Origin: Sorangium cellulosum
Lineage (GTDB): Bacteria; Myxococcota_A; Polyangia; Polyangiales; Polyangiaceae
NCBI GenBank assembly: GCA_020720045.1
Contig: DYPH01000038.1
Location: 1 to 44,291, forward strand
DNA: 44,291 nucleotides
Reading direction: 5' to 3'
Below are positions 3,828 to 12,868 of the stretch, piece by piece. Under the pieces are notes generated by a model. It did not search any database. It was given only the letters and a program-made list of their open reading frames with translations, and was not told the DNA's origin. A program made the position numbers and the translations under genes. Positions within the stretch are counted from its first letter, which is position 1. The number at the start of each line of letters is the position of its first letter.

Positions 3828-3939
3828 ACGAGAGTACTAACGGCGGCCCGACACGTGCGTCAGAATTGCGTCAGCGTCGTCGGTCGGTGCGGCGAAACGC
3901 GACAGGCGAGTCGAGCGCTTCGGCGCTAGCGTCGCCGCC

Positions 3940-5094
3940 GTGAGCCGCATTCCGTCGTTGTCCCTCCGTCGCCACCTGGTTGCTGGTCTCGGCGATTTCC
4001 TCGCAGAGGCCGAACTCCCCTGTGCACCGACCGCCGAAGCGCTCGCCGAACTCGTCGTCTCCCTTTCCCACTATCGCGAGGAGGGCACGGCCCTCTTTCC
4101 GATGGTTTTCCTTGGAAATTCCGTCGAAGAACTCCTCGTTGCGGTGGGCGGAGCCGACCCGATCCCCCTCGGACGGGGGCCCGCCGATGCGGCGACGATT
4201 CGCCTTGCCCTCAAGCGGTCTGCCCCGCTCTGCGTCGGCCGTCACTGGTCGATCTACGTCAGTCGCGAAAAGGGGGACTGCGGCATCGGCGGCGTGTCCG
4301 AGTTTGCGTTTGGGGTCTTTCGGGCCGATCCATTTCCGCTGCAACCTACACCCATCGAGCGTCTGAGTGCCCTCTCGGGCCGTTTGCCGGTGTTTGGCGT
4401 CATCCAGCGAGCGCCAGATCTTGTGGAAATTCGGAGCAGTGGCGGACTCGTTCGCCATGTACTCCTCGCCGGAAGCGACGGCGAAGGCGAGTCACCCACG
4501 CGGGCCATCGACGCGATCGCCCGGAGCGCCGCCCGCGACGTCCCACCCGAATTTTTCGCCGCCACCCACGGTTTCTACCGCCGCAGCCTCGTCTCTGTGC
4601 TCCAGTCGGGGCACGGCAGTCTCGTCGGCGTGACCGAGGCAAAAAGCTCGTTGTCCCGCCTCTTTGCCGACGGCGTCCTTCATCAACCGGCGATTCCGGT
4701 CGCCGAAGCAATACGTGCAGCATGCACCAATCCGAACCGCGACGTCGCCACACGGGTCCGCGCCTACGGGCATCTGTTTGAAGGGATGCTCGGCATGGAT
4801 GGCGTGACGCTGGTCTCCTCGGCGGGAGACATCGTCGGCTACCATATTTTCCTGCGAAATCTCGAAGATGCGCCGCCAAGCAGCGGGCGCGGTGGAGACG
4901 CTTCGAGCCCGGTAGGCGGTGCCCGACGACGCACCTACTCGGCCCTTGCGAGCTGGGTCGGTCGCGGGCTCGTCGCCGCCTTTTACCGCTCCCAGGACGG
5001 CGCCGTCGCCTTTCGGGTGGCAGAGTCGCCGGATGGGGCGAGTCGCGCTAGCCTGCCCAGCAGCCATGAACCCGAAGAATCCGCCCCCCTCTGA
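3940..5094 (+). CDS. Putative DisA_N-related (DACNV-like) sensor-domain protein
   Basis: A 384-residue soluble protein starting with GTG. I do not recognise a standard enzyme. The N-terminal half has the pattern LSHYREEGTALFPMVF near residue 45. The C-terminal region (about 275-360) reads FEGMLGMDGVTLVSSAGDIVGYHIFL, then GGARRRTYSAL and FYRSQDGAV. This recalls the DisA_N/DAC fold (DGAVV...G.ILGFGVFL, then G.RHRAA) and the DACNV sensor family of catalytically inactive relatives. The DGA and RHR catalytic motifs of true diadenylate cyclases are not preserved, so it would be a nucleotide or ligand sensor rather than a cyclase. The assignment is from memory of motif patterns and is tentative. Its 3' end overlaps the next gene by 29 nt, implying co-translation and a linked function. 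Confidence 0.45.
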   Translation: MSRIPSLSLRRHLVAGLGDFLAEAELPCAPTAEALAELVVSLSHYREEGTALFPMVFLGNSVEELLVAVGGADPIPLGRGPADAATIRLALKRSAPLCVGRHWSIYVSREKGDCGIGGVSEFAFGVFRADPFPLQPTPIERLSALSGRLPVFGVIQRAPDLVEIRSSGGLVRHVLLAGSDGEGESPTRAIDAIARSAARDVPPEFFAATHGFYRRSLVSVLQSGHGSLVGVTEAKSSLSRLFADGVLHQPAIPVAEAIRAACTNPNRDVATRVRAYGHLFEGMLGMDGVTLVSSAGDIVGYHIFLRNLEDAPPSSGRGGDASSPVGGARRRTYSALASWVGRGLVAAFYRSQDGAVAFRVAESPDGASRASLPSSHEPEESAPL

Positions 5095-5833
5095 TCGTTC
5101 GGGAACGCCGTCGTCGACGTCCGCCCCTTGGGTTTCTACCGTCCGTGCTGCGTTTGCCGGCGTCCAGGCGCAGGCGGCCGGCGCAGCTGCCGAGAAGCTC
5201 TTTCGCGCAACGGGCGAACGCTGGATTAGCTTGGAAATTCGGAGAGCTGTGCAGGGGGCTGTGACGAAGACCGCCGACCGTGTGCTCGCAACGTCGCCGG
5301 CACTTGGCGCGGCAAAGGCGATCGTGGAGAGCGACGCCGTCCGGGCGCTGTCTGGGCGGGTGCGGGCACGCCTTCCCGCGAGCTTGCGCGCGACCTCTCC
5401 CGCCGTCCTCCGTGCCGCCGAAGCGGGCGCCGCCGCCGCTGCCAAAGAGCTCGCAAAGAACGCGGGACGGGCGGCCGGGGTCGGCTTTGTCATCGACGGC
5501 GCCATCGCAGGTTTTCAGGGAATTGCCGCCGTCCGCCGCGGCGAAATGGAACCGATCGATGCCGCCAAACACGCCGCCCGGGAAGGGGCGAAAGGGGCGT
5601 TTGCGACGGCCGCTGGCGTCGTCGCGACCGGCGCGGTCGTCGCTGCGACCGGAGGCCTCGCAGCCCCTGTGCTGTTCGTGATCGGCGCCGGCACCGCCCT
5701 CGGTGCGCGCGTCGCCCTCGATCGTTGGGACACCAAATATTTGAAGCGCCTCACCGCCGCGGCCGCCCCCCGGGAGGCGCCAGAAGATGCGGAGACCGTG
5801 CATGTCGGCGTGCTCGTGACGGCGAACGACTGA
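5066..5833 (+). CDS. Glycine/alanine-rich putative membrane protein
   Basis: A 255-residue protein of unknown function. The N-terminal 25 residues are Ser/Pro-rich and disordered. Residues about 30-130 are amphipathic Ala-rich helices. Residues about 130-235 are strongly hydrophobic with Gly/Ala repeats (GVGFVIDGAIAGFQGI, GAFATAAGVVATGAVVAATG, APVLFVIGAGTALGARVAL), suggesting glycine-zipper transmembrane hairpins. It ends in a short acidic tail. The ATG at 5066 lies inside the upstream gene (29-nt overlap), which suggests translational coupling to the DACNV-like protein. A membrane-disrupting or scaffold role is possible but is only inference. A strong hairpin terminator follows at 5860. Confidence 0.6.
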   Translation: MNPKNPPPSDRSGTPSSTSAPWVSTVRAAFAGVQAQAAGAAAEKLFRATGERWISLEIRRAVQGAVTKTADRVLATSPALGAAKAIVESDAVRALSGRVRARLPASLRATSPAVLRAAEAGAAAAAKELAKNAGRAAGVGFVIDGAIAGFQGIAAVRRGEMEPIDAAKHAAREGAKGAFATAAGVVATGAVVAATGGLAAPVLFVIGAGTALGARVALDRWDTKYLKRLTAAAAPREAPEDAETVHVGVLVTAND

Positions 5834-5859: not shown

Positions 5860-5901
5860 AAGAAACCGCCCCAAGCAGTCGTCTGCGTGGGGCGGTTTCT
5901 T
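5860..5901. terminator. Bidirectional hairpin terminator
   Basis: A perfect 14-bp stem (AAGAAACCGCCCCA / TGGGGCGGTTTCTT) closes a loop that contains a further GCAG/CTGC pairing. It lies between convergent genes (membrane protein stop 5833, permease stop 5914) and can end both transcripts. Confidence 0.85.
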
Positions 5902-5913
5902 AGGATAAAGCGG

Positions 5914-7452
5914 CTATTTCGCTTCGTTGCGCAGGCGGCTGTGGCGCATCCCGTAACCGAAGTAGACGGCGAAGCCGATGATGAGCCAAATCACCAGGCG
6001 GAGCCAGGTGTCGCCGGGGAGCCCCTTCATGACCCACAGGCAGGCGATCGCGCCGGCGGGGCCGACGAAGTAGGGTGCGGGGACGCGGAACGGGCGCGGA
6101 ATATCAGGGTTCGTGCGCCGAAGGATCGGGACGCCGAGGCAGACGAGCACAAAGGCGAGGAGCGTCCCGATGGAGACGAGCTCGCCGACGAGACTCATCG
6201 GCAGGATCGCGCTCGCAAAGGCGACGAAAAGCCCGGTCACAACGGTCGCAATGTGCGGCGTGTTGTAGGTCGGGTGGGTCTTCTTGAACCAGGGAAGCAG
6301 GCCGTCTTGGCTCATCGCGTAGAAGACGCGCGTCTGCCCGAGCATCATGACGAGGATGACGCTCGACAGGCCAGCGAGCGCGCCGAGCTTCACCAAAAAG
6401 GTAAAGGATTTCTGAAGCATCGGTGACCAGCCGCGGAGTTCGACGATCTTGTCGATGCCGACGGCGATCGGGTCCGAAACGCCCAGCTGCTTGTAGGGGA
6501 CGACCCCCGTCAGCGTGAGCGCGACGAGGATGTAGAGAATGGTGCAGAGTACAAGCGATGCGAGGATGCCAATCGGCAAATCACGCTTCGGATTCTTTGC
6601 CTCTTGGGCGGTTGTACTGACGGCGTCAAAGCCGATGTAGGCAAAAAAGACGACGCCTGCCCCGGTGAGAACGCCGCCATTGCCCCAGCCAAAATGGCTT
6701 CCGGTCGCATCGACGACGACCGGCGGGACAAGCTTAGCGACGCCGGTCGCGGCCGGGTTTGCGACGAGGTTATCGGCGGTGATCAGACCGATGCCCAGAA
6801 CCACGAAAGAGACGACGATCACAACCTTCAGGATCACGATCAGGTTGTTCACCCAGGCCGACTCCTTGATGCCGCGATAGAGCACGGAGGCGCATACGAG
6901 CGCGATCAGGAAGGCGGGGAGATTAATCCATCCGTAGGCGGTGCTTCCGTCGCCGAGTTTGATCGTTTCCCAAGGCCCCTTCGTGAAGCGGAGGACCGTA
7001 TCCGGGAACTGAATGTGGAACGTTTTCTGGGGAATAGACAAGAGATAGCCGGACCATGCCGATGCTACCGTCACCGCACCAAAGGCATACTCAAGGACCA
7101 AGTCCCAGCCGATGATCCAAGCGATCAGCTCGCCCATCGTCGAGTAACTGTAGGCGTACGCCGAGCCTGCGACCGGGATCATCGCTGCTAGTTCCGCGTA
7201 ACACAAACCGGCAAGTGCACAGAGAACACCGCCAATTACAAACGAAATAGCAATGCCAGGTCCTGCGTAATTCGCTGCCGCAGTTCCGGTCAACGAGAAG
7301 ATCCCAGCGCCGATGATGGCGCCGATTCCGAGCATCGTGAGGTGGAAGGCCCCGAGCGAGCGCTTTAGGCCGCCGCCATGGGCTTCGTCGCGGTTGGGGT
7401 CGTTGGCCTCCGCGACGACGCGGGCGAGGTCCTTCTTGAGAAACAGATCCAT
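5914..7452 (-). CDS. APC-superfamily (CAT-type) amino acid permease
   Basis: A 512-residue integral membrane transporter. After a short cytoplasmic N-terminus (MDLFLKKDLARVV), the first span contains GIGAIIGAGIFSLTG, the unwound TM1 substrate-binding motif of APC transporters. Further conserved blocks are ALCYAELAAMIPVAGSAYAY (TM2-3), IGWDLVLEYA, and FFAYIGFDAVSTTAQEAKNP (TM6, the CAT-family signature). About 12 hydrophobic spans are visible, and it ends in a basic tail. The family imports cationic or other amino acids by proton symport. The ATG at 7452 is preferred over longer frames because the family motif begins immediately after it. It is divergent from tryptophan 2,3-dioxygenase with 67 bp between starts, so an aromatic amino acid substrate is possible. 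A paralogue occurs at 42237. Confidence 0.9.
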   Translation of the reverse strand: MDLFLKKDLARVVAEANDPNRDEAHGGGLKRSLGAFHLTMLGIGAIIGAGIFSLTGTAAANYAGPGIAISFVIGGVLCALAGLCYAELAAMIPVAGSAYAYSYSTMGELIAWIIGWDLVLEYAFGAVTVASAWSGYLLSIPQKTFHIQFPDTVLRFTKGPWETIKLGDGSTAYGWINLPAFLIALVCASVLYRGIKESAWVNNLIVILKVVIVVSFVVLGIGLITADNLVANPAATGVAKLVPPVVVDATGSHFGWGNGGVLTGAGVVFFAYIGFDAVSTTAQEAKNPKRDLPIGILASLVLCTILYILVALTLTGVVPYKQLGVSDPIAVGIDKIVELRGWSPMLQKSFTFLVKLGALAGLSSVILVMMLGQTRVFYAMSQDGLLPWFKKTHPTYNTPHIATVVTGLFVAFASAILPMSLVGELVSIGTLLAFVLVCLGVPILRRTNPDIPRPFRVPAPYFVGPAGAIACLWVMKGLPGDTWLRLVIWLIIGFAVYFGYGMRHSRLRNEAK

Positions 7453-7519
7453 AGGGGGGCGGCGAAGGTACCTCGATTCCTGCCCATCGCGGGCTCGAAG
7501 TCGCCTACTTTTCGGGGCC

Positions 7520-8389
7520 ATGACCTCACGCCCCCTGGAAGCCGGCATTCACACTTCGATGCAACGCGGAGAGTCCTACGGGGACTACCTTCACCTGGAT
7601 CGTGTGCTCGCGGCCCAAGAGCCGCGGAGCACCGCCCACGACGAAATGCTCTTTATCATTCAACACCAGACGTCCGAGCTCTGGATGAAGCTGATGATTC
7701 ACGAGCTCGACTTCGCCGTTTCTTTGGTGAAAGAAGACCGACTTTCTGAGAGCTTTAAGGTCCTTGCGCGCGTCGCTCACGTGCAGCGGACGCTCTTTGA
7801 TCAATGGGGTGTTCTCGAAACGATGACCCCGAGCGAATACATGCGTTTCCGCGATGCGCTCGGGCGCTCTTCCGGATTTCAGTCCTACCAGTACCGCGCG
7901 ATCGAATTCGCACTCGGCAACAAGGACCGCGCCATGCTCGCCCCCCACGTCACGGACGTACAGGTCCATGGCGACCTGGAGCGCCGTCTCGCAGCTCCCT
8001 CGATTTACGACGAATTTTTGGCATTCCTCGCTCGCAAAGGGCACGCGATTCCCGCGGAGTGCCTCAACCGAGATTTCTCGAAACCCTACCGCGCAAATCC
8101 TGCTGTTACTGACGTCTTCAAGACGATCTATGACGCCCCGGAAGCGAACTGGGAAGCGTACGATATGTGCGAAAAGCTCGTCGATATCGAGGAGCGCTTC
8201 CAGCTTTGGCGCTTCCGCCACATGACGACGGTAAAGCGTATCATCGGCTTCGCGCCGGGCACCGGCGGAAGTTCCGGCGTCGGCTTCTTGAAGCAGGCTC
8301 TAGAGATCTCCTTCTTCCCCGAGCTCTGGGACGTCCGCACGCGGCTCGTACCGGGCGCAAGTGCCGCTGCGCGACGCAACGAAGGATGA
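7520..8389 (+). CDS. kynA: Tryptophan 2,3-dioxygenase
   Basis: A 289-residue heme enzyme that opens the indole ring of L-tryptophan to give N-formylkynurenine, the first step of the kynurenine pathway. Diagnostic blocks are all present. YGDYLHLDRVL is at 20-30. HDEMLFIIQHQTSELWMK is near 40-57 and includes the active-site His and Phe. SGFQSYQYR carries the substrate-carboxylate Arg. LWRFRHMTTVKRIIG contains the proximal heme His, and GTGGSSGVGFL closes the active site. The length matches bacterial TDOs. The ATG at 7520 gives the family N-terminus; the longer frame overlaps the divergent permease. No other kynurenine-pathway genes are in the window. Confidence 0.96.
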   Translation: MTSRPLEAGIHTSMQRGESYGDYLHLDRVLAAQEPRSTAHDEMLFIIQHQTSELWMKLMIHELDFAVSLVKEDRLSESFKVLARVAHVQRTLFDQWGVLETMTPSEYMRFRDALGRSSGFQSYQYRAIEFALGNKDRAMLAPHVTDVQVHGDLERRLAAPSIYDEFLAFLARKGHAIPAECLNRDFSKPYRANPAVTDVFKTIYDAPEANWEAYDMCEKLVDIEERFQLWRFRHMTTVKRIIGFAPGTGGSSGVGFLKQALEISFFPELWDVRTRLVPGASAAARRNEG

Positions 8390-8433: not shown

Positions 8434-10104
8434 TTAGAGGGCGAAATCTGGGAGTAGAATCCAGCGATTACGCTTCTCGTCGAGCCCGGTCACGACGACC
8501 GCGATCGGGTCACCGACGCGCACGAGCGGCTTCCCCTCGGTCGCGGGGCCTGTTGAAGAGGCCCCGCCCAGAAGCGCGGCCCCTTCGTGGCCCGTTTCCA
8601 GCCAGACGGGGCGCGTGCCGGGCGGGGCGAGTGCGAGGCCGAGGTCGCGAAAGAAGACCTTCACGTCAAGCGCGGGCGCATCCAGTTCGACGTGGATCTT
8701 CCCACCGGCAAGCCCAAGCACCGTCCCGGAGAATCGGGTCCGCTCGGCGACGGGAAGCGCAAGCTGTTGGCCGAAAATGCGCTCGTGAACGAGGGCGCGG
8801 ACGCCCTCGTCGAGGGACCGTTGGAGGTCTTTCGACGCATTTCCGGCGGCGACAACTCGGTCGCGGAGGGCGCGATCGGCGACCGGATCGTCGCACCGTT
8901 GGGTGAGAAGCTCGGTCATTTCCTTGTGGAGGAAGATGCCGACGAGCTCGCGCATCGGCGCCGAGAAGCGCGCGTAGGAGGAAGCTCCAACGCCGAAGTG
9001 GGCGGAGGGTTCAGAAACGAATTGGGAACGCTGATTGAGAATGACCGCCTGGCGGTGAATCGCGCGCGCAATGCCGTCGGTGGGGCCCCCTTCGGGGAGG
9101 CGCCGGAGGTAGGCGGCAAGGGCCCGCGAGATCTCGTCGAGCGCCACGTCGGGGAAGAGCCAGGGGTCGTCGGGAAGGCCGTGCATCGCGACGAGAGCAG
9201 AAACAAAGCGCGGAAATTGCTCAAGATCTGCGTCGTCCGGCGGCGGATGGATCCGGTAGAGGGGCTGCACGTAGTCGGGCGGCGTCTCCCGAAGGATCCG
9301 CGCCCCTTCCGCGTTGCACAGAAGCGAAAGCTGCTCGTTGTACAGTTCGACTTCTTTGCGAACCGAACGCGTCGGGTACAGAAACCCGTCGCCGTCCGGC
9401 TTGAGATCAATCTCACTTCGCCGGTAGCGGACGACGTCGCGGTGGCTCGCCTCCGCCACGCGCGCCTCGCCGACCACGCGCAAGAGCCCGAGGCTCTCCG
9501 CATATGCGGCTGCAGCGAGCGCTTCTGTCGTCGCGGAAGCGACGCCGTCGTAGAAGTCCTGGACGTCGTCGAAGGCAAGCTTGGCGCGGCTACAGATACG
9601 CGCACGATAGACGCGTGTGTCATGCACGCATCCATTCCGGGCGACGGTCGTTTCGAAGACGAGGGCGCGCCGGTCGACCCCTTCGTTGAGCGAGACGACC
9701 CCCTCACTGAGCGCACGAGGCAGCATCGGCACCGCGTAACCGGGCATGTAGAAGCTTGCGCCGCGCTTCAGCGCCTCGACAAAAAGGGCACTGTCGGGGC
9801 GCACGTAGTAGGCGGCGTCGGCGAGTGCATAATACACAGAGATAAGGCCATCGTCCCGCTTGGCGAGAAAGAGCGCTTGATCGAGATCTTTGGAAGTCCG
9901 CGCATCGATGGTCACGAACGGGAGGTGACGGAGGTCGGTCAGCTCGGGGTCGTCGATGCCGGGATTCGCGGCAAAATGTGCTGCTTCCGCGTGGACTTCC
10001 GGCGGATGGTCGAGGGGGACTCCGGCGCGAGAAACAAGGTCTCGGAGGAGTTCACCGAGGGTAGCGGGGGGCGTGGCTAGGGGCGATTCAGGTGTAGTTT
10101 GCAT
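8434..10104 (-). CDS. RNB-domain exoribonuclease (RNase II/R family)
   Basis: A 556-residue 3'-5' exoribonuclease-like protein. The RNB motif TIDARTSKDLDQA spans about 65-77: Asp67, Asp73 and Asp75 match the metal-binding Asp residues of RNase II/R, while the fourth position is Gln76. Downstream, YARFSAPMRELVG corresponds to the Y-x-H-F-T-S-P-I-R-R block. The protein begins almost directly at the catalytic domain and lacks the N-terminal cold-shock domains of RNase R, so it is a short RNB subfamily. A poorly conserved S1-like segment may close the C-terminus. Its ATG overlaps the stop of the TrkA-N gene (TGATG), indicating translational coupling; a TTG one codon earlier is the alternative start. 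It is probably the last gene of the fumarase-Rieske-TrkA run. Confidence 0.88.
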   Translation of the reverse strand: MQTTPESPLATPPATLGELLRDLVSRAGVPLDHPPEVHAEAAHFAANPGIDDPELTDLRHLPFVTIDARTSKDLDQALFLAKRDDGLISVYYALADAAYYVRPDSALFVEALKRGASFYMPGYAVPMLPRALSEGVVSLNEGVDRRALVFETTVARNGCVHDTRVYRARICSRAKLAFDDVQDFYDGVASATTEALAAAAYAESLGLLRVVGEARVAEASHRDVVRYRRSEIDLKPDGDGFLYPTRSVRKEVELYNEQLSLLCNAEGARILRETPPDYVQPLYRIHPPPDDADLEQFPRFVSALVAMHGLPDDPWLFPDVALDEISRALAAYLRRLPEGGPTDGIARAIHRQAVILNQRSQFVSEPSAHFGVGASSYARFSAPMRELVGIFLHKEMTELLTQRCDDPVADRALRDRVVAAGNASKDLQRSLDEGVRALVHERIFGQQLALPVAERTRFSGTVLGLAGGKIHVELDAPALDVKVFFRDLGLALAPPGTRPVWLETGHEGAALLGGASSTGPATEGKPLVRVGDPIAVVVTGLDEKRNRWILLPDFAL

Positions 10105-11156
10105 CAATGAAGGTAGGCCGCAATTTGCGGCAGGAGGGGGGCCGGTGCGTCAACAAGGACGCGGTCGCCGGCAGCGAGAGGGGTGCTTGCGCGCGCGGTG
10201 GTGAGCGGACCGCCGTTCACCGTCGCCGCGACGACGCGCACATCGAGAGCCTCTTCGAGGGCCCCAACCGTCTTGGCGGGGCATTGGGATCCTACACGCA
10301 TTTCGAGCGAGACGCGAAGCGTTCCATCGTCGAGGGGGTAGACGGCACGGACGCCGTCCCAGCGAGCCTGGAGGGCAACGAGCGGTGCGGTGACGGCGCT
10401 TGTCGAGAAGGTCCGGTCAAACTCGAGGGCCCCGCCGACCTTGCTCGCCATGCGCTGGTCGAACATCCGCATGACGACCCGAATCTTGGGATTCATCCGG
10501 CGCGCGTCGATGGCGACTTCCAAATTTGCCAGATCGTCGTCGGTCGCACAAACCACAGTTCGCGCCCGTTCAATCCCCGCTTCAATAAGAAGTTCGTCGC
10601 GACGCGCGTCGCCGCGGATGACGGGGATATTTGCATGTTCCACCGATTCCACGAAAGAGGATGCGTTCCGCTCGATGGCGACGACCGCCTCCCCGAGATC
10701 GACGAGGGCGTTGACCACTCGGAAACCGACGTTTCCAAGTCCGCAGACAACCACATGATCTTTCATTCGTTGGCTCCGGAGGCGCGTCCATAGTTCCCGT
10801 CGCGCTTCGCGATCCACGAGCGCCGCGCCGACCTTGAGGACGCCTTCGGCAACGACGACGGCGCCGACGACGGGGGTAATCCAGAAGAGCGTGCGGGCGA
10901 TCGGGGACGTGGGAAAATCTTCCGTCGGCTCAAAAAAGAGCTGCGTGTAAAGTGCATAGAGCGTTGCGCCAAAATCTTTGACGGGGCGACCGTGGCGCGC
11001 AAGATCCCAGCGGAACACGAACGCGGCGGCGAGCGTGTAGCCGACCGCGGCGACGAGCCAGGGGCCGAGCTTTCGCGCGACATGGGCGGCAAGCGCGATC
11101 CGGAGGGCGAGACCGTCCTCGAAGCGTCTTCGGCGCGCGGCTGCTAGCTCAGACAC
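10104..11156 (-). CDS. TrkA-N (RCK) domain protein with two membrane spans
   Basis: About 350 residues if it starts at the GTG at 11156. Two hydrophobic spans (about 33-49 and 85-108) flank a segment with a pore-helix look (ALYTQLFFEPTEDF) but no TVGYG-like K+ filter. The RCK/Rossmann domain follows: VVCGLGNVGFRVV (GxGxxG at 139-144), then VVAIERN with the acidic residue expected for NAD(H) binding, and a C-terminal TrkA-C-like region. The family gates K+ channels or transporters in response to nucleotides. The missing filter makes true K+ conduction doubtful. The start is uncertain: there is no ATG, and the gene should begin downstream of the Rieske stop at 11228. The stop overlaps the next gene's start. 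Confidence 0.75.
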   Translation of the reverse strand: MSELAAARRRRFEDGLALRIALAAHVARKLGPWLVAAVGYTLAAAFVFRWDLARHGRPVKDFGATLYALYTQLFFEPTEDFPTSPIARTLFWITPVVGAVVVAEGVLKVGAALVDREARRELWTRLRSQRMKDHVVVCGLGNVGFRVVNALVDLGEAVVAIERNASSFVESVEHANIPVIRGDARRDELLIEAGIERARTVVCATDDDLANLEVAIDARRMNPKIRVVMRMFDQRMASKVGGALEFDRTFSTSAVTAPLVALQARWDGVRAVYPLDDGTLRVSLEMRVGSQCPAKTVGALEEALDVRVVAATVNGGPLTTARASTPLAAGDRVLVDAPAPLLPQIAAYLH

Positions 11157-11227
11157 CGGCGCATTTGCGCCCGCGCCCGACCGCGATGCAACGACGTTGA
11201 CCGACGCGTTGCAGATTTTCGCCTTGC

Positions 11228-12868
11228 TCAGACGATCCCTTCCGGCGGGAGCCCGTCGGCGAGGAATTTCTCGGCGTTCGCCAAAACGCGGGCGAGGGGC
11301 GGCACGCCGTCGGCGAGGAAGAGACGGTCCCGAGCAGCCACGGCGAGCGATTCGTTTCTTGAATCGAAGGCAACCAGCCGGTCGAGGGCGTCTAGCACCG
11401 CGAGACCGCGCCCGCGCGCCATCCACGCCGCCGGCGCTGCGAGGGCGAGGTCGCCGATGGCGGTGCGGTCCCAAACGACGGGGACCGGAGCCTCAAACAT
11501 CGTGGAAATTCGAGAAAGTCGCCCGGTCAGCCCCGCGAGTTGGACGAGCTGATTCGGAAGGAACCGGGCGTTCTCCGCTGCCGGGGTGAGCTCGGCGATG
11601 GCGGCGGCGAGGAGCACCAGGCGGCCCGCCTCAAAGGGGTCGACGTCAGAACCGACCTTCGCCGTCCAGGCGCCGTCATAGCTCGCCGCCCGCCGGAGGG
11701 CCGCCCCAACAAGGACCGGAACGAGCGCGGCCGCGGTGTGCGTCTGCAGGGCCGTCAGCAGGGCGTCGACGGCCCGGCGCTCGGAAGCGAGAAGCTCAGA
11801 AACCATTGTATTCGCATCAGTTTCACCCACGCTCGTGGCGAGCCCCGCAGGAGGACTCGTCCTGCGGGCAACCTCGTGGAGGGCGACGCGCGTCGGCCGA
11901 AACCCGGGCAGATCGCTCTCGGCGACCGCCCAGGCGAGCGTCGATGCCGCACCGAGAGCAAGCGATTCACCGAGCTTATCACCACCGCCACTGGCCAACC
12001 GCGCCGCCGCAAGGACGCGCGGGAGCGCCAAACCGCGGTCCCAGAGCTTGAGCGACGCAAACGGAACGAGCCACGCTGCGGTGATTCCTTGCCGTTCCTC
12101 GGCGGGGAGGCCGAGGACGCGGGCGAGCGCATCGGTCCGCCGCTCTTCGACGAGGTCTGCCAAGAAGGGGGCGCGATCTTGTTCCAGACGCGCCGAAAAC
12201 GGCGTCGGCCGCGATCGGGCGCCACGGGCACGCGCCTCGTCAGCAACGGCAGAAATGGCCAGCAGATAGGCGGTCGGCGCCCGAAGCACGCCGACCTCCA
12301 TCAGGCGCTTCGCGGCGGCGATGGCGAGGATGCCGTCGGCTGCGCCAAAGGGGGTGTGCTCGGCGGCGATCGGCGCAAGCACGGCGAAGGGGCGAGCGAC
12401 TCCGTCGTCGGGAGGAGCTCCGATAAGCGAAACCAATCGCAAGCTCTCGCGGAGGGCGACATCGAGCTGCCCCTCCAAGGTCGCCCGCGCGAGGTCTCGC
12501 TCGGTGCGAAGGCGCGTGGCGGCGCCGTCGAGCTCGGGATCGATAAAGACCGTTTCGTGATGAATTTCAGTTATATAGCGCGCGACGCTCTCGCCTCCGA
12601 AGAGGCAATCGCCGGTGCCGAGGTCGAACTTCCAGTTGTGCCAGGGGCACGTGAGGATGGCCGAGCAGCCCTCCTCGGCGGTGGTCCGGACGAGCCCCAT
12701 GCTGAGCGGGTGCCCCTCGTGGGGGCACCGATCATCCACCACATGAATCGCCTCCTCCCCTCCCATGACGACGCGGACCGCCGCAAAGCGACGCGCCCCG
12801 AGCTTCACGAGGCGCGGCTTGTTGGCAGGGAGGTCTTTGACCGGGCAGAGGGCGACGAAGGTCTTCAA
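11228..12868 (-). CDS. Rieske [2Fe-2S] domain fused to a large uncharacterised domain
   Basis: A 546-residue protein that starts with TTG, preceded by AAGG 8 nt upstream; there is no ATG alternative. Residues 1-110 are a Rieske ferredoxin domain: CPHEGHPL (Cys48, His50) and CPWHNWKFD (Cys74, His77) provide the 2Fe-2S ligands. The remaining 430 residues are helical and Ala/Leu-rich with several His and acidic positions. I do not recognise this part; it is not the Rieske-oxygenase catalytic domain, because the His-His-Asp iron facial triad is not evident. It probably acts in the cytoplasm as an electron-transfer or redox-sensing module. It lies between fumarase (72 bp upstream) and the TrkA-N gene (72 bp downstream) on the same strand, probably in one transcript. 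Confidence 0.8.
   Translation of the reverse strand: MKTFVALCPVKDLPANKPRLVKLGARRFAAVRVVMGGEEAIHVVDDRCPHEGHPLSMGLVRTTAEEGCSAILTCPWHNWKFDLGTGDCLFGGESVARYITEIHHETVFIDPELDGAATRLRTERDLARATLEGQLDVALRESLRLVSLIGAPPDDGVARPFAVLAPIAAEHTPFGAADGILAIAAAKRLMEVGVLRAPTAYLLAISAVADEARARGARSRPTPFSARLEQDRAPFLADLVEERRTDALARVLGLPAEERQGITAAWLVPFASLKLWDRGLALPRVLAAARLASGGGDKLGESLALGAASTLAWAVAESDLPGFRPTRVALHEVARRTSPPAGLATSVGETDANTMVSELLASERRAVDALLTALQTHTAAALVPVLVGAALRRAASYDGAWTAKVGSDVDPFEAGRLVLLAAAIAELTPAAENARFLPNQLVQLAGLTGRLSRISTMFEAPVPVVWDRTAIGDLALAAPAAWMARGRGLAVLDALDRLVAFDSRNESLAVAARDRLFLADGVPPLARVLANAEKFLADGLPPEGIV

Follow-up and report, generated by a model that had tools for sequence, protein, structure and literature searches.

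A relative of c-di-AMP synthases in Sorangium cellulosum, undescribed so far, with possibly two copies of the diadenylate cyclase fold and one nearly intact active site

This work deals with two overlapping genes, here called P1 and P2, found in a stretch of 44,291 nucleotides of Sorangium cellulosum (contig DYPH01000038.1 of assembly GCA_020720045.1, our contig C9; the genome comprises 6.3 Mb in 357 contigs), the whole of which is referred to as the window. The genes are co-directional and share 29 nucleotides (5066-5094), and since homologues can be aligned with both products, at 30-45% identity for P1 and 27-37% for P2, both are taken as genuine. Our own gene caller, based on the guanine-cytosine pattern, missed the two genes, picked an antisense open reading frame at 3871-4458 and mis-called others; its output was used as hints. 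As shown below, P1 appears to be an undescribed relative of the enzymes that synthesize cyclic di-AMP (c-di-AMP), possibly with two copies of the diadenylate cyclase (DAC) fold, one of which has a nearly intact active site. The coordinates of the features are collected in Table 1.

Table 1. Genes, domains, motifs and other features in and around the P1-P2 locus (positions of the window)
Feature	Position	Strand	Remarks
P1	3940-5094	+	Open reading frame, GTG start, 384 amino acids
P1 N-terminal domain, possibly a degenerate DAC-fold copy	3940-4494	+	Residues 1-185; without DGA, RHR or SEE motifs
P1 C-terminal domain, very probably DAC (DisA_N)	4498-5025	+	Residues 187-362; Foldseek, VIA-align, hhalign
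G226-S227-L228, counterpart of GALI	4615-4623	+	G226 and L228 invariant, 22/22
D287-G288-V289, counterpart of DGA	4798-4806	+	D and G 22/22, then I in 21 and V in 1, in no case A
G326-G327-A328-R329-R330-R331, counterpart of G(T/S)RHR	4915-4932	+	A328, R329 and R331 22/22
R350-S351-Q352-D353-G354, counterpart of (V/I)SEE	4987-5001	+	RSQDG 22/22 in the P1 family
P2	5066-5833	+	Open reading frame, ATG start, 255 amino acids; Ala/Gly-rich, separate family
P2 hydrophobic segments	5477-5533, 5633-5689	+	Residues 138-156 and 190-208
Hairpin GAAACCGCCCCA...TGGGGCGGTTTC	5860-5901	.	14-bp outer stem, A- and T-containing ends; between P2 and the convergent permease gene
Amino acid permease	5914-7548	-	Convergent with P2
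TrkA_N (RCK-type) channel-like protein	10104-11474	-	

The relation of P1 to the diadenylate cyclases was found in its C-terminal half. The AlphaFold model of the protein, built with 22 sequences, reached a predicted local distance difference test score (pLDDT) of 80.8 and a predicted template modelling score (pTM) of 0.76, and when it was searched with Foldseek the first 29 of 50 rows were DisA- or CdaA-type diadenylate cyclases, with E-values from 1.7e-4 to 0.28. In VIA-align, which re-ranks the top 1000 chains of Foldseek, the 40 best PDB entries were all DACs (Z 11.3-8.5) and the next row was an unrelated protein with Z 3.4; the DAC matches covered model residues 187-371, with a root-mean-square deviation (rmsd) of 2.8-3.8 Å over 120-131 residues. 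At the level of profiles, hhalign matched the C-terminal half to the DAC part of 27 proteins in which a DACNV domain precedes a DAC domain (DACNV-DAC proteins) at E 1.1e-6 in a single comparison, and none of 100 shuffles did as well. These 27 proteins come from 30 loci (L106-L135), the others having yielded no protein with the motifs required by our selection script. Judged from the model, the C-terminal half almost certainly has the DAC fold, and judged from the profiles it is related to the DAC part of DACNV-DAC proteins.

The positions that form the active site of known DACs could be followed into P1. In Listeria CdaA, ATP is contacted by the Leu of GALI, the Asp of DGA, the Gly, Thr, Arg and His of GxRHRxA and a Ser, and the metal by the Glu of SEE (excerpts of PMC7288161). 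The counterparts in P1 are L228, D287, G327, A328, R329, R330, S351 and D353, with R331 as the last Arg of the motif; the GALI counterpart was placed by inspection and that of SEE by matching the serine, as the joint alignment shifts canonical DACs by one column. P1 keeps the Leu, the Asp, the Gly, both outer Arg, the Ser and an acidic residue as candidate metal ligand. Among the 22 family members, the middle position of the RHR counterpart is R in 20, H in one and Q in one, so that RHR is intact in 1/22 (RRR 20, RQR 1), and DGA is intact in none. The SQDG of P1 is also common in DACNV-DAC proteins (S 27/27, Q 21/27, D 27/27, G 26/27). In the alignment of 10 sequences (A1), eight of nine site positions are invariant compared with 20 of the 167 other positions of the domain (Fisher 1.3e-6), and in the alignment of 22 sequences (A2), which fall into 12 clusters at 80% identity, the rest of the domain is invariant at 17 of 167 positions (Fisher 4.6e-7 for the site), values to be read with the reservation that the nine positions, taken from the literature list, were picked after the alignment had been seen and that related sequences are not independent. 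Because eight of the nine site positions are invariant, inactivity is not the best reading of this C-terminal copy. We consider it probable from these residues that the domain binds nucleotide, we see about equal chances for and against P1 being an active cyclase, and an active or altered cyclase is the reading slightly favoured for the C-terminal copy.

The comparison proteins were chosen by motif, so that intact motifs are partly built into these sets, and the six excluded loci are more varied. The canonical set holds 16 of 19 loci (L081-L099). One of its excluded members, L087, combines DGA with GARHR and thus has Ala at the Thr/Ser position of an otherwise canonical DAC, and the two others (L093 and L099) have DGS with GSRHR. 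As for the excluded DACNV loci, L135 has DGA and GTRHR, L125 has DGL, and in L116 the motifs could not be placed. Mutants of these motifs have been described for two cyclases. Replacement of RHR by AAA abolishes the activity of DacA from Mycobacterium tuberculosis (excerpts of PMC3328451) and of CdaS from Bacillus thuringiensis (excerpts of PMC4568413), and replacement of DGA by AAA abolishes that of CdaS (PMC4568413), while DacA tolerates G73A in DGA (PMC3328451). In the literature passages on DAC mutants no test of His to Arg or Thr to Ala was found.

The N-terminal half of P1 may be a second copy of the same fold, as suggested by structure only. Modelled alone with 18 sequences (pLDDT 81.9, pTM 0.81), it gave in VIA-align 23 top entries that were all DACs, with Z 6.7-5.5 against 3.3 for the next row, values in a range (Z below 8) that according to the guidance of the program may reflect a common arrangement. 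The alignments extend over 116-128 residues with rmsd 3.6-4.2 and 8-15% identity, and the order of elements (helix-strand-helix-strand-helix-strand-strand-helix-strand-strand) is, by eye, broadly as in the C-terminal half. The structure comparisons of the two halves also gave weak rows for FBPase, encapsulin and MoaE, from which no relation is claimed. From the models, it is somewhat more probable than otherwise that P1 carries the DAC fold in tandem, its N-terminal copy being degenerate. In comparisons of other profiles, DACNV against canonical DACs was equalled by 3 of 60 shuffles, which is merely suggestive, and DACNV against the P1 C-terminal half by 9 of 60.

A preliminary description of the window, made from the letters alone, had seen in P1 motif patterns of inactive, DisA-related and DACNV-like sensor domains. 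The DisA likeness holds well, since structure comparison with both Foldseek and VIA-align puts DACs first for the C-terminal half, and the relation to the DisA_N fold stands. The DACNV likeness is upheld by the match of the C-terminal half with the DAC part of DACNV-DAC proteins and is not recovered in the N-terminal profile. The term 'inactive' does not suit the C-terminal half, for the invariance described above, and may suit the N-terminal half, for which structure is the only ground.

Taken together, the explanation that we judge best, and to which we give an even chance, is that P1 is a member of the DAC superfamily with an altered C-terminal site and a degenerate N-terminal copy, making a cyclic dinucleotide. 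Here, the N-terminal domain would be the regulatory or ligand-sensing half responding to some signal, and the C-terminal domain would bind ATP, with D287 at the ribose, R329, R330, R331 and S351 at the phosphates and D353 at the metal. DACs need two domains placed head-to-head, and the C-terminal domain of P1 would pair in this manner with a second C-terminal domain, the product being most simply c-di-AMP. In a more specific form, P1 would represent a myxobacterial tandem class in which the dead N-terminal copy regulates, perhaps as an intramolecular head-to-head pseudo-dimer, a rebuilt C-terminal site (DG[IV]T, GGARRR, RSQDG), giving a product other than ordinary c-di-AMP, and by extension the DACNV domain, a 'sensor' in Pfam, could likewise have arisen as a DAC copy that degenerated; we regard this form as unlikely.

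A protein search of the order (183 genomes) found relatives of P1 in 10 genomes besides the source genome, which brings the total to 11. A twelfth candidate (G048) was dropped, its match being of 20 bits and the P1 profile having found nothing in its locus (L024). In a congeneric genome (G001) only residues 1-91 of P1 are present, at a contig end. A scan of a wider contig collection with two peptide patterns gave 22 P1 loci, nine from duplicates of genomes already counted and 13 from new genomes labelled Myxococcus (8), Pyxidicoccus (2), Citreicoccus (1), Myxococcales metagenome-assembled genome (1) and Comamonas (1). The homologue in the last of these records (L065, BNCN01000005.1, Comamonas sp. 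KCTC 72670) is 85-92% identical to the five Myxococcus-group homologues compared, and the record also has the upstream GTPase gene of the Myxococcus-group loci described below; it is probably a mislabelled or contaminated assembly. Across the phylum, P1 occurs in at least 5 of 377 genomes, in a search that scored five candidates per genome and can miss members. No convincing match of P1 was obtained in Pfam (0 families), NCBIfam or PADLOC, nor of the one Myxococcus homologue scanned in NCBIfam. Several candidates were treated as chance, namely talin and Csm6 from PDB and Pfam profile searches (E 0.013-0.74), GNAT (best E 0.022, in 6 of 22 members) and PprPIWI, the best PADLOC hit of P1 (E 0.035). 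With one window at the hydropathy cut-off, P1 is apparently a soluble, stand-alone member of the DAC superfamily of Myxococcota.

The neighbours of P1 differ among three loci outside the Myxococcus group (GH92 hydrolase, aspartyl protease, EamA transporter). In the Myxococcus group, each of the 12 loci (L059-L063, L065-L068, L071, L072, L079; Comamonas record included) has, upstream of P1 and in the same orientation, a gene for a protein of 580 amino acids with a GTPase domain (MMR_HSR1, identified in L061, with weak Dynamin_N). A search for this gene in the window and in the 21 remaining loci, some of them with little upstream sequence, found none. The preliminary description had proposed a defence or stress module. 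Nothing found here supports a role in defence: P1 matched nothing in PADLOC better than E 0.035, P2 nothing at all, and ten tested proteins (nine neighbours of P1 and of three homologues, and one P1 homologue) nothing at E 0.001. P1 might still have such a role, since DACs take part in defence in another system (DS-2, below).

P2 was described as a Gly/Ala-rich membrane protein coupled to P1. The two open reading frames and their overlap lie where the preliminary description placed them, and the composition agrees (26% Ala, 10% Gly); its 'several hydrophobic hairpins' are a generous reading, as two windows of 19 residues reach the hydropathy cut-off, which was of our own choice. A single-sequence search found relatives of P2 in 23 of 183 genomes including the source (22 of 182 others, five of which reached no better than E 1e-4 to 8e-4), with varied surroundings. 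The alignment of the family (A5) comprises P2 and 12 of the 19 loci examined, L042 being excluded for a match of 35 residues only. The family (L025-L041) has a core like KGAGKAAGIGFVIDGA and a Gly-rich hydrophobic stretch. Most of its members are from genomes of the family to which the window belongs, and one genome (G145) has three copies. No convincing Pfam or NCBIfam model was found for it, and MamC for P2 (E 10) and the scattered NCBIfam matches of single relatives (down to 0.0051) were treated as chance.

The pairing of the two genes was not found to be conserved. In the single-sequence searches, which scored up to 10 candidates per genome for P1 and up to 14 for P2, there was no shared genome. 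Among the 10 other genomes of the order that have P1, a profile of P2 matched one, G178 (E 1.9e-16, with the source genome G000 as positive control), in which the P2 relative lies on contig C198 and P1 on C62; it matched none of the 13 further P1 genomes, in a search without positive control, and the P1 profile matched none of 22 other P2 genomes (G000 positive). Nor was P2 found in the 33 loci fetched for P1 (415 kb, duplicates and L024 included; positives 32/33), which represent 23 distinct P1 places, one of them cut off inside P1, or P1 in 15 loci of P2 (158 kb, 13 genomes; positives 15/15). In G001 no P2 was found; there the contig breaks off within P1, so that the locus cannot show whether the pair exists. 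Sharing of one genome indicates no association, because about 1.2 would be expected by chance (by hand) for 10 and 22 among 182 other genomes. A conserved P1-P2 unit is in consequence scarcely credible, and P2 is a lineage-specific neighbour of unassigned function, of a separate family and not a conserved partner of P1.

The hairpin downstream of P2 folds at -33.4 kcal/mol (z -9.0), and none of 200 shuffles was equally good. A simple terminator scan gave an overlapping site on the minus strand, but its terminator-like sites, three in all, are about as numerous as expected by chance (mean 1.9). The hairpin probably acts as a terminator in both directions, for P2 on one side and for the convergent permease gene on the other. 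The genes of the amino acid permease and of the TrkA_N channel-like protein both lie within about 6.5 kb of P1; families of TrkA_N/RCK-type proteins and of amino acid permeases include c-di-AMP targets elsewhere.

Several results weigh against P1 being a tandem cyclase. For the C-terminal half, the DAC rows of Foldseek have low template modelling scores (0.20-0.27 by query length, 0.26-0.49 by target) and rmsd of 5-13, the profile does not exceed shuffles when compared with canonical DACs (11 of 100 column shuffles reach the score), and the Pfam DAC threshold (PF02457) is unreached by the P1 family, the best E-value being 0.08 in one of 22 members. In the site, Thr/Ser is changed to Ala (22/22) and His to Arg (20/22), which alters two phosphate contacts, and no member retains DGA; because the AAA mutants of RHR and DGA cited above are inactive and these motifs are altered here, the activity of P1 could be lost. 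For the N-terminal half, Foldseek gave no confident match (best E 0.061, a MoaE-like chain), the best Z of 6.7 lies below the 7-8 usual as best value for models that lack a clear match, and the profile was equalled by 45 of 100 shuffles against DACNV, by 31 of 60 against the P1 C-terminal half and by 30 of 60 against canonical DACs.

These results open the way to other explanations. Close to the first idea about this locus is that both halves are non-catalytic and P1 is a pseudoenzyme that senses a nucleotide (ATP, c-di-AMP or another dinucleotide) for other partners, which we regard as possible but rather doubtful. It would account for the invariant loss of the Thr/Ser and of the Ala of DGA and the near-invariant loss of the His, and c-di-AMP could be supplied by the canonical DAC of the source genome (G000:C190, E 2.5e-35). 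However, the positions of the candidate metal and ribose ligands and both outer Arg are kept, the invariance of eight of the nine positions persists down to 30% identity, and the loci outside the Myxococcus group showed no partner gene in common. With regard to the N-terminal domain alone, it could be an unrelated alpha/beta sensor, a divergent DACNV or a new fold whose arrangement merely resembles that of a DAC. We take this as a serious possibility that falls short of being probable, for the lack of any sequence-level relation to DAC, to DACNV or to the C-terminal half, the MoaE-like best row of Foldseek and a Z within reach of models without clear match all agree with it, whereas the filling of all 23 top VIA-align places by DACs, well above the next rows and over 116-128 residues, and the similar order of helices and strands do not.

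The idea of a sensor-effector module limited to one lineage, in which P1 would sense or make a nucleotide and P2 would perturb the membrane, draws on the same-strand overlap of 29 nucleotides, on the strong hairpin that closes the pair downstream and on the two hydrophobic segments of P2. It is very unlikely in our view, since both families occur together in only one other genome examined, on different contigs, P1 relatives are absent from all 15 P2 loci and no defence match was obtained among the tested proteins.

Compared with known systems, P1 is most like the DACNV-DAC proteins (PF21751 and PF02457), which have similar length and likewise carry their DAC C-terminally, after an N-terminal domain, and whose C-terminal halves share with it the HG(G/S) and SQDG motifs. 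They differ in having DGA and GTRHR nearly always (25-27 of 27 by position, in a set selected by motif), where P1 proteins have DG(I/V) and mostly GARRR, and P1 has no Pfam DACNV match, nor has any other protein of the source genome, and its N-terminal profile remains unmatched. DACNV is common in the order, where 54 of the 183 genomes have a PF21751 match with E no higher than 0.1 and 50 of these pass the cut-off; in three of the four DACNV-DAC proteins scanned (L101-L104) the DAC half falls below the Pfam DAC cut-off. P1 superposes on DisA (Thermotoga maritima 3c1y, Mycobacterium tuberculosis 9y9y) along 123 residues of the DAC fold, with Z 11.2-11.3. In DisA the DAC domain comes first and a helix-hairpin-helix (HhH) domain forms the C terminus; in P1, by contrast, the DAC-like site is C-terminal and Pfam recognizes no further domain. 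The fold is likewise shared with CdaA, CdaS and DacM (Z 8.5-10.7), but CdaA is linked to the membrane (excerpts of PMC8573169), unlike P1 with its single window at the hydropathy cut-off and its altered motifs. A DAC domain is also present in DS-2, a system associated with the cyclic oligonucleotide-based antiphage signalling system (CBASS), where the DAC is needed for phage defence; in DS-2 the DAC is accompanied by a cGAS-like cyclase and a phospholipase (excerpts of PMC13092281), whereas the scanned neighbours of P1 and of three homologues have no PADLOC match. Our literature search, made without Galperin's 2023 review of the architectures of DACs (J Bacteriol 205:e0002323), found no paper that names DACNV, a DAC pseudoenzyme or tandem, degenerate or inactive DAC domains.

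If P1 is active, it would stand for a family of second-messenger enzymes missed by the Pfam DAC profile and by NCBIfam scans of P1 and of one Myxococcus homologue, and this family occurs in culturable species such as Myxococcus xanthus, whose homologue lies at L061:5956-7023. If the tandem arrangement is true, it would illustrate how diadenylate cyclases can gain a built-in regulator, by duplication of the DAC fold into one dead and one live half.

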